Of a stretch of DNA of 42,120 nucleotides, positions 38,040 through 39,983 are shown one piece after another. How positions within the stretch are numbered: the stretch's first letter is position 1; each line of letters begins with the position of its first letter. A program made the translations under genes and the position numbers. A model generated the notes under the pieces. That model ran no database searches. It worked only from the letters and a program-made list of their open reading frames with translations, and was not told the DNA's origin. The stretch is taken from assembly GCA_024640695.1 (NCBI GenBank), contig JAHEEM010000007.1, positions 1-42,120 on the forward strand, in the 5' to 3' direction. The stretch is from Rhodospirillaceae bacterium (GTDB taxonomy: Bacteria; Pseudomonadota; Gammaproteobacteria; Steroidobacterales; Rariloculaceae).

Positions 38040-38921
38040 CTAGGCTGGATAGAGCTCGCGGGAGTCGAAGACCGGGCCGTCAACACAAACGCGCTTCATG
38101 ACGACGCCCTCGGGCTTGTGCAGCGGCACGATGCAGCCCGCGCAGCCGCCCACGCCACACGCCATAAACTCCTCGACGGCGAGTTGGCAGGGGAGGTCGA
38201 AGTCGCGCGCGACCTCCGCGGCAGCCCGCAACATCGCGTGCGGCCCGCAGCCGACAATCTGCACATTGACGAGCCGTTCCGCCGGCAGAGTATCCAGCCA
38301 GCGGCGGGCGAGTTGCGTGACATGACCCGGATAGCAACCCTCGAGGCCGGCGTTGCTCGCCAAGGCCGAGACTATGCCCCACTCCTCGAGCTGCGCTACC
38401 GTCAGTGAGGCGGTATCCGGTAGTTCAGTTACAGGCGCTGCTCTAGCGCCTAGCGCAAACGGGAATGGCACCTCCGATCCCATGAGAACGATCGGCTCGA
38501 AGTGTCGCTGCGCGCGAAGCGCCTCCGCGAGGAAGTACACTGGTGGTATGCCGACGCCACCGGCGATCGCAAGAATGACTGGCCGTGTCGCGTCCGGAGA
38601 GAAGCCGTTGCCGATAGGGCCAAGCAAGCTCACAACTTCTTGCGGTGCCCGTTTCGCCAGTTGAGCAAGCCCCGTGCCTATCGGTTTGTAGAGGAACTCG
38701 ATCCAGCCGTCGTCGGCATCGACGCGCATGATGGAAAGCGGCCGCCGCATTGGAATAAGCGGGTCGCAGGTCAGGTGAGCGAAGCTGCCCGGCCTGGCGC
38801 GCGCGGCGCATCGGGGTGCGTGAACGCGGAGGACATACTGATTGCCCGGGAATACCTGCTGCGACAGAATCGTCGCGTCCTCCAGACAGATTGTTCCGCG
38901 GTGGCTGTGCTGAGTGTTAAT
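38040..38921 (-). CDS. Dihydroorotate dehydrogenase electron-transfer subunit (PyrK-like); proposed ATT start
   Basis: GTICLEDATILSQQVFPGNQYVLRVHAPRCAARARPGSFAHLTCDPLIPMRRPLSIM (FAD domain) continues in frame into the listed ORF 38040-38750, which ends ACGVGGCAGCIVP...RVCVDGPVFDSREL (2Fe-2S). No ATG/GTG/TTG covers the FAD domain; ATT at 38921-38919 has GGAG 8 nt upstream. Confidence 0.8.
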   Translation of the reverse strand: MNTQHSHRGTICLEDATILSQQVFPGNQYVLRVHAPRCAARARPGSFAHLTCDPLIPMRRPLSIMRVDADDGWIEFLYKPIGTGLAQLAKRAPQEVVSLLGPIGNGFSPDATRPVILAIAGGVGIPPVYFLAEALRAQRHFEPIVLMGSEVPFPFALGARAAPVTELPDTASLTVAQLEEWGIVSALASNAGLEGCYPGHVTQLARRWLDTLPAERLVNVQIVGCGPHAMLRAAAEVARDFDLPCQLAVEEFMACGVGGCAGCIVPLHKPEGVVMKRVCVDGPVFDSRELYPA

Positions 38922-39008
38922 GTCGAAATCTCCGGGCGAAAATCGCGGTTCGGTCGGGTCGGGTGCGGTTTGAGGGTTGCTGCCCAGCTGCCGAGATGGG
39001 CCGGGCGC

Positions 39009-39983
39009 TCACCTAGCCGTCCCAAGTCCTGCCACGACATGCTCGTGGACGAGCGCGAGCACGGCCATGCGGATCGCAACGCCGTTGGTTACCTGTTGCT
39101 GAATTACCGACCGCGGCCCGTCGGCGAGCGCCCCGTCTATTTCCACGCCGCGATTCATCGGGCCCGGGTGCATCACGATCGCCTCGGGTTTGGCTAACTG
39201 CATGCGTTCCTCGGTCAGCCCGTAGCGGCGAAAATACTCCTGCGGATCCGGAATCTCGCCGAGCTCGGCGAAGCGTTCCTTCTGAATTCTCAGCGCCATC
39301 ACGACATCGACATCGCGGATTCCCTCGCTGAGTCGCGAGTAGCTGCGAGCCTCGGGAAAGCCCTCCTCCGGCAGCAGCTCCTCGGGGGCCACGAGGCGAA
39401 GCTCGCCGACGCCGAGCTTAGTCAGTGCCTCGTAGGCCGATCGCGCTACGCGGGAATGTTTTATATCGCCAACGATTGCAATACAAAGTGCGCCGACCTC
39501 GCCCTTGTTGCGTTGAATCGTCATGACGTCGAGCAGGCCTTGAGTCGGGTGCGATACATCCGACTCGCCGGCGTTCAGCACGGACACGTGCGGTGCTACA
39601 TGCTTGGTGATGCGCAGTGGCACCCCGGTACTCGCATCGCGGACAACGAAGATGTCGATCTGCATCGCCTGCAAGGTATAGATCGTGTCGAGCAGACTCT
39701 CGCCTTTAGTGCGAGACGACATATTCACGTCGAGGTTCAACACGTCCGCCCCCAGCCTTTTTGCCGCGAGCTCGAAAGACGCGCGCGTCCTCGTGCTGGC
39801 CTCAAAGAAGAGATTCGCGACCGTATTCCCTCTGAGGATCGTATCCCGCGGTGGCGGCTGGCCTATCGGCCTCGAGTAGTGTGCGGCGCGCTCGATAATT
39901 TTCTCGATCTGCGAGCGGGGGAGGTCTGCAAGCGAGATCAGATGGCGAAGCTGCCCTTGGTTATTGAGTTGCTCGGCGCTCAT
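39009..39983 (-). CDS. pyrB: Aspartate carbamoyltransferase catalytic subunit
   Basis: LFFEASTRTRASFELAAKRLGADVLNL, SVLNAGESDVSHPTQGLLDVMTI, HPGPMNRGVEID; ATGA overlap with ruvX. Confidence 0.98.
   Translation of the reverse strand: MSAEQLNNQGQLRHLISLADLPRSQIEKIIERAAHYSRPIGQPPPRDTILRGNTVANLFFEASTRTRASFELAAKRLGADVLNLDVNMSSRTKGESLLDTIYTLQAMQIDIFVVRDASTGVPLRITKHVAPHVSVLNAGESDVSHPTQGLLDVMTIQRNKGEVGALCIAIVGDIKHSRVARSAYEALTKLGVGELRLVAPEELLPEEGFPEARSYSRLSEGIRDVDVVMALRIQKERFAELGEIPDPQEYFRRYGLTEERMQLAKPEAIVMHPGPMNRGVEIDGALADGPRSVIQQQVTNGVAIRMAVLALVHEHVVAGLGTAR

Follow-up and report, generated by a model that had tools for sequence, protein, structure and literature searches.

How translation of a pyrK gene begins when its reading frame offers no canonical start codon is the question raised by the locus studied here. 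In the window (the whole 42,120-nucleotide stretch of DNA that was analysed), pyrB ends at TGA 39011-39009, and the same frame then runs for 86 codons without a stop, ATG, GTG or TTG up to ATG 38750. The first-pass annotation, made from the letters alone, had described this arrangement together with an ATT at 38921-38919 that follows a GGAG by 8 nt, and each of these elements was confirmed in the sequence. Among the in-frame near-cognate codons, only ATT 38921 follows a properly spaced Shine-Dalgarno (SD) match of 4 nt or more. The features discussed below are the following:

39009-39983, minus strand: pyrB (aspartate carbamoyltransferase), from NCBIfam NF002032 (365 bits, cut-off 263) and sequence
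39009-39012, minus strand: GTGA, putative remnant of an ancestral NTGA overlap, its GTG now outside the pyrK frame
38917-39012, minus strand: 31-codon mini-ORF, GTG 39012 through TAA 38919-38917, with the stop overlapping the ATT (ATTAA)
38922-39008, minus strand: 87-nt spacer between the pyrB stop and the ATT, checked for structure, promoter and terminator
38930-38933, minus strand: GGAG, SD-like motif 8 nt before the ATT
38919-38921, minus strand: ATT, proposed pyrK start codon, aligned to the ATG of a congener (L003); a canonical in-frame start is absent
38040-38921, minus strand: pyrK, 293 aa from the ATT, stop TAG 38042-38040, identified by matches to 5ksw_B, 1ep3_B and PF10418

The protein read from the ATT matched solved PyrK chains (5ksw_B, E 9e-21; 1ep3_B, E 5e-20) and the dihydroorotate dehydrogenase B iron-sulphur domain (PF10418, 53.9 bits, cut-off 23.9), and it has the PyrK layout of an FAD/NAD reductase with C-terminal [2Fe-2S] cysteines, in which CGVGGCAGC...C is conserved. 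With this near full-length match and the iron-sulphur domain it resembles PyrK, the electron-transfer subunit of class 1B dihydroorotate dehydrogenase (5ksw, 1ep3). Unlike a typical PyrK, it matches the NCBIfam PyrK models below their cut-offs (the equivalog NF000799 gave 116 bits against 314), and it is therefore a divergent PyrK. The body of the gene is conserved and intact, frame and cysteines included, and the gene is single-copy in the window's assembly. Class 1 PyrD (TIGR01037) scored over its cut-off in all eight genomes checked, the window's genome among them, and class 2 PyrD (TIGR01036) did so in none of the eight; thus an expressed PyrK is expected, and the PyrD classes imply that it should be needed for UMP synthesis. 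The window's pyrK is encoded with pyrB, and the gene for class 1 PyrD is found on a different contig.

Whole-genome searches recovered pyrK from 21 of the 22 family genomes and from 201 of the 216 genomes of the order, and 75 pyrK loci of the order were read base by base. All but four of the 75 carry an ATG, GTG or TTG 3-19 codons before a [G/N]TI motif that is conserved among them. One of the four is the window, with its ATT at -8 codons from the motif and hence inside the relatives' range; the other three are loci of a sister genus, g9 (L010, L016 and L019). The N-terminus counted from the ATT has the length found in relatives. One congener, L002, has an ATG at -8, the same codon as the ATT, and a TTG at -7 on the pyrB stop; the other, L003, has an ATG at -9, and an unguided DNA alignment (MAFFT) paired the window's ATT AAC ACT with ATG AAC ACC of L003. 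Among the 72 loci to which a start could be assigned, by a heuristic assignment, 43 use ATG, 13 TTG, 12 GTG, three CTG and one ATT. In the three g9 loci a shared CTG lies at -4, some 12 nt ahead of the motif, and follows a GGAG by 7 nt; in two of the three g9 species the pyrB stop overlaps this CTG as CTGA, and L019 additionally has a farther GTG at -23. Since the window has ATT and its sister genus CTG, non-canonical pyrK starts would have at least two origins in this family. Judged by conservation, the CTG of g9 is the stronger non-canonical pyrK start of the two.

For an estimate of chance, spacers were shuffled such that they likewise lacked in-frame stops and ATG, GTG and TTG, and were then scored for an ATT, ATC or ATA that lay 3-19 codons ahead of the motif and was preceded, at a spacing of 5-10 nt, by an SD match of 4 nt or more. 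Such a candidate appeared in 2.7% of the shuffled spacers (4.1% with CTG allowed), and the placement of the ATT and its SD is by itself moderately above chance; the comparison with relatives is stronger evidence for the ATT than these statistics. Of the hallmarks of AUU-initiated genes of the infC and pcnB type, the locus has AUU as the sole plausible in-frame start and an SD motif at the proper distance; the supporting hallmark, conservation of the non-canonical codon in relatives, is missing, as the congeners have ATG and CTG is kept only in g9. The AUU initiation that the first-pass annotation had put forward emerged as the best-supported reading: pyrK of this uncultured gammaproteobacterium is probably translated from AUU 38921 behind the GGAG, on the strength of its alignment with a relative's ATG, the only well-placed SD-like motif, and the N-terminal length of relatives. 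Against it, the congener L002 has an ATG at the very same codon, besides the TTG on its pyrB stop. Also counting against this start is the weakness of AUU, which in a reporter assay in E. coli reached about 0.3% of the efficiency of AUG (Hecht 2017, cited in PMC10666635), a low value for a needed enzyme.

The main rival to an AUU start is a sequence or assembly error, by which the true codon at 38921 would be ATG, or an indel of 1-2 nt would hide GTG 39012 as an in-frame start. We consider this unlikely, though it has to be taken seriously, because the window comes from a single draft MAG of 356 contigs (completeness 86.8%, contamination 5.8%, infC present twice) and because the GTG lies exactly at the ancestral overlap. 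The comparison with relatives, which had been proposed as a check for such an error, cut both ways: the ATG of L003 aligns with the ATT, as expected of a genuine start position, and the congeners' ATGs at or near that position are also what the error would predict. The indel version would add a 38-residue extension and would not explain why an ATT with a well-placed SD aligns with the ATG of a relative, and assembled contigs seldom carry a base or indel error at any one particular site. A contig search of genomes for an independent sequence of the same species gave relatives only; the searched set may omit the window's own genome. The two similar infC copies (L046 and L054, on contigs C273 and C338 of G000) indicate that the MAG may be mixed.

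The other rivals leave the sequence as it stands and place the start elsewhere. The earliest canonical start of the frame is ATG 38750, but it corresponds to an internal Met (MRRPLSI) that is conserved in most relatives, and alignment with L. lactis PyrK indicates that a start there would cost the FAD domain roughly its first 50 residues, in agreement with the earlier statement that part of the flavin domain would be deleted. A decaying gene that no longer yields a full PyrK is at odds with the intact frame and cysteines and with the expected need for PyrK, and we regard both versions as improbable. Initiation at CTG 38885, the L of CLED, or at another internal near-cognate codon, is slightly more improbable still. 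CTG is a known weak start codon and apparently starts pyrK in g9, and the L. lactis protein extends only a short way beyond this point on its N-terminal side; however, a start there was assigned to none of the other 74 loci, an SD-like motif is absent before it, and the conserved TI residues would be lost. The first-pass annotation had offered this CTG as an alternative together with readthrough of the TGA into a PyrB-PyrK fusion, and both are disfavored here. The fusion, for which the shared frame of pyrB and pyrK across a single TGA speaks, is the most improbable of all, as the joining stretch is Pro-rich and has no counterpart, PyrB ends at its usual place, and in relatives with an adjacent pyrB the two frames normally differ (an overlap of -4 or another phase). 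A conserved PyrB-PyrK readthrough was rejected on these differing frames.

Three features went unnoticed in the first-pass annotation: the ancestral 4-nt overlap, the CTG-started pyrK of the sister genus, and the mini-ORF whose stop overlaps the ATT. In 39 of the 72 assigned loci the pyrK start overlaps the upstream stop, of pyrB or ruvX, by 4 nt (NTGA), from which we infer that this was the ancestral junction and that a spacer of about 87 nt replaced it in the window. The window's GTG 39012 is now 115 nt upstream of the motif and no longer in frame with pyrK. The RNA structure of the spacer was not more stable than that of shuffles (z 0.91), and no promoter or terminator match was found in the spacer on the minus strand. 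In the scenario that we propose, pyrK would first have begun inside the pyrB stop and been translationally coupled to pyrB; the spacer would then have parted the two genes and shifted the old GTG away from the pyrK frame. Eight codons before the [G/N]TI motif a new start would have emerged, as ATG in one congener and as ATT in the window.

Like termination-reinitiation pairs (PMC6728339, PMC10666635), the locus combines an ancestral 4-nt pyrB-pyrK overlap with a 5-nt overlap between the mini-ORF stop and the ATT. In coupled overlapping pairs the upstream stop overlaps the start or is separated from it by a few nt at most; in the window pyrB ends 87 nt upstream, and coupling would need the 31-codon mini-ORF as a relay. 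Because reinitiation drops steeply with distance (PMC10666635), direct coupling to pyrB across 87 nt is unlikely. Ribosomes that finish the GTG mini-ORF at ATTAA may instead re-initiate on the overlapping AUU, which would partly restore the coupling of pyrK to pyrB. The 5-nt overlap is a form closed to ATG, GTG and TTG and possible with ATT (PMC10666635), and a single G-to-T change at 38919 would create both the AUU and the TAA. We hold this handover from the old start to the AUU to be a doubtful, speculative addition. Bridging mini-ORFs that end on NTGA were found at seven other displaced loci (L003, L015, L018, L019, L026, L076 and L104). In all, 8 of 13 displaced loci bridge, against 3.6 expected with the phase randomised and 6.7 with the phase kept; two are congeners, and 60% of spacers shuffled around a fixed start context bridge too. 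On these figures the relay is suggestive only; the statistical support for selection of bridging mini-ORFs is weak, and the relay could be a coincidence. At six of these loci (L015, L018, L104, L076, L003 and L026), the distance between the overlap at the upstream stop and the overlap at the pyrK start is spanned exactly by a short ORF of 4-19 codons.

Initiation at AUU, if used, would be weak and subject to discrimination by IF3, as it is at infC, which in E. coli starts with ATT. In the window's genome (two copies) and in the readable relatives, infC has a strong SD, an AAGGAG-like motif, about 6 nt, and then ATC or ATA, which makes IF3 discrimination against AUH starts likely in the lineage. 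The infC of the window's genome starts with ATC, so such control probably exists in that genome, and a pyrK started at AUU would be expected to respond to it. It is thus plausible, as the first-pass annotation had supposed, that pyrK is held at a low or IF3-sensitive level, and the use of ATC and ATA by infC in the family fits this. The infC loci that were read (L043-L054) show ATC or ATA starts in the family, not ATT. Streptomyces infC starts with ATC (PMC5472188). In the same genus sigR, which has a GTC start and is repressed by IF3 (PMC5472188), offers a parallel in which a rare start gives low, IF3-dependent expression, with the differences that the window's codon is ATT and that the effect was measured in sigR and is proposed for pyrK.

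As in E. coli infC and pcnB, pyrK in the window has an AUU behind an SD motif and no canonical in-frame start; unlike them, it is a metabolic enzyme gene, the AUU is found in one species so far, and relatives use ATG, TTG, GTG or CTG. To our knowledge, very few bacterial genes with starts other than ATG, GTG and TTG have been characterised, and gene finders do not search for them. The window's pyrK is a plausible new AUU-start example of this known oddity, resting on one metagenome assembly. With a start inside the upstream stop codon as the norm of the order, and shifts to ATT in one genus and CTG in another, the series of pyrK starts provides a natural test of how coupling tolerates or favors weak start codons. 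Should the AUU reading be wrong, the locus would be a lesson in the single-base uncertainty of MAGs.

The upstream end of pyrB also bears on the layout of the operon. The ORF list begins pyrB at ATG 40016, and ATG 39983-39981 is more likely the start, as it forms an ATGA overlap with the ruvX stop. The ATGA at 39980-39983 would thus comprise the ruvX stop and the likely pyrB start, and the -4 overlap recurs in the operon.
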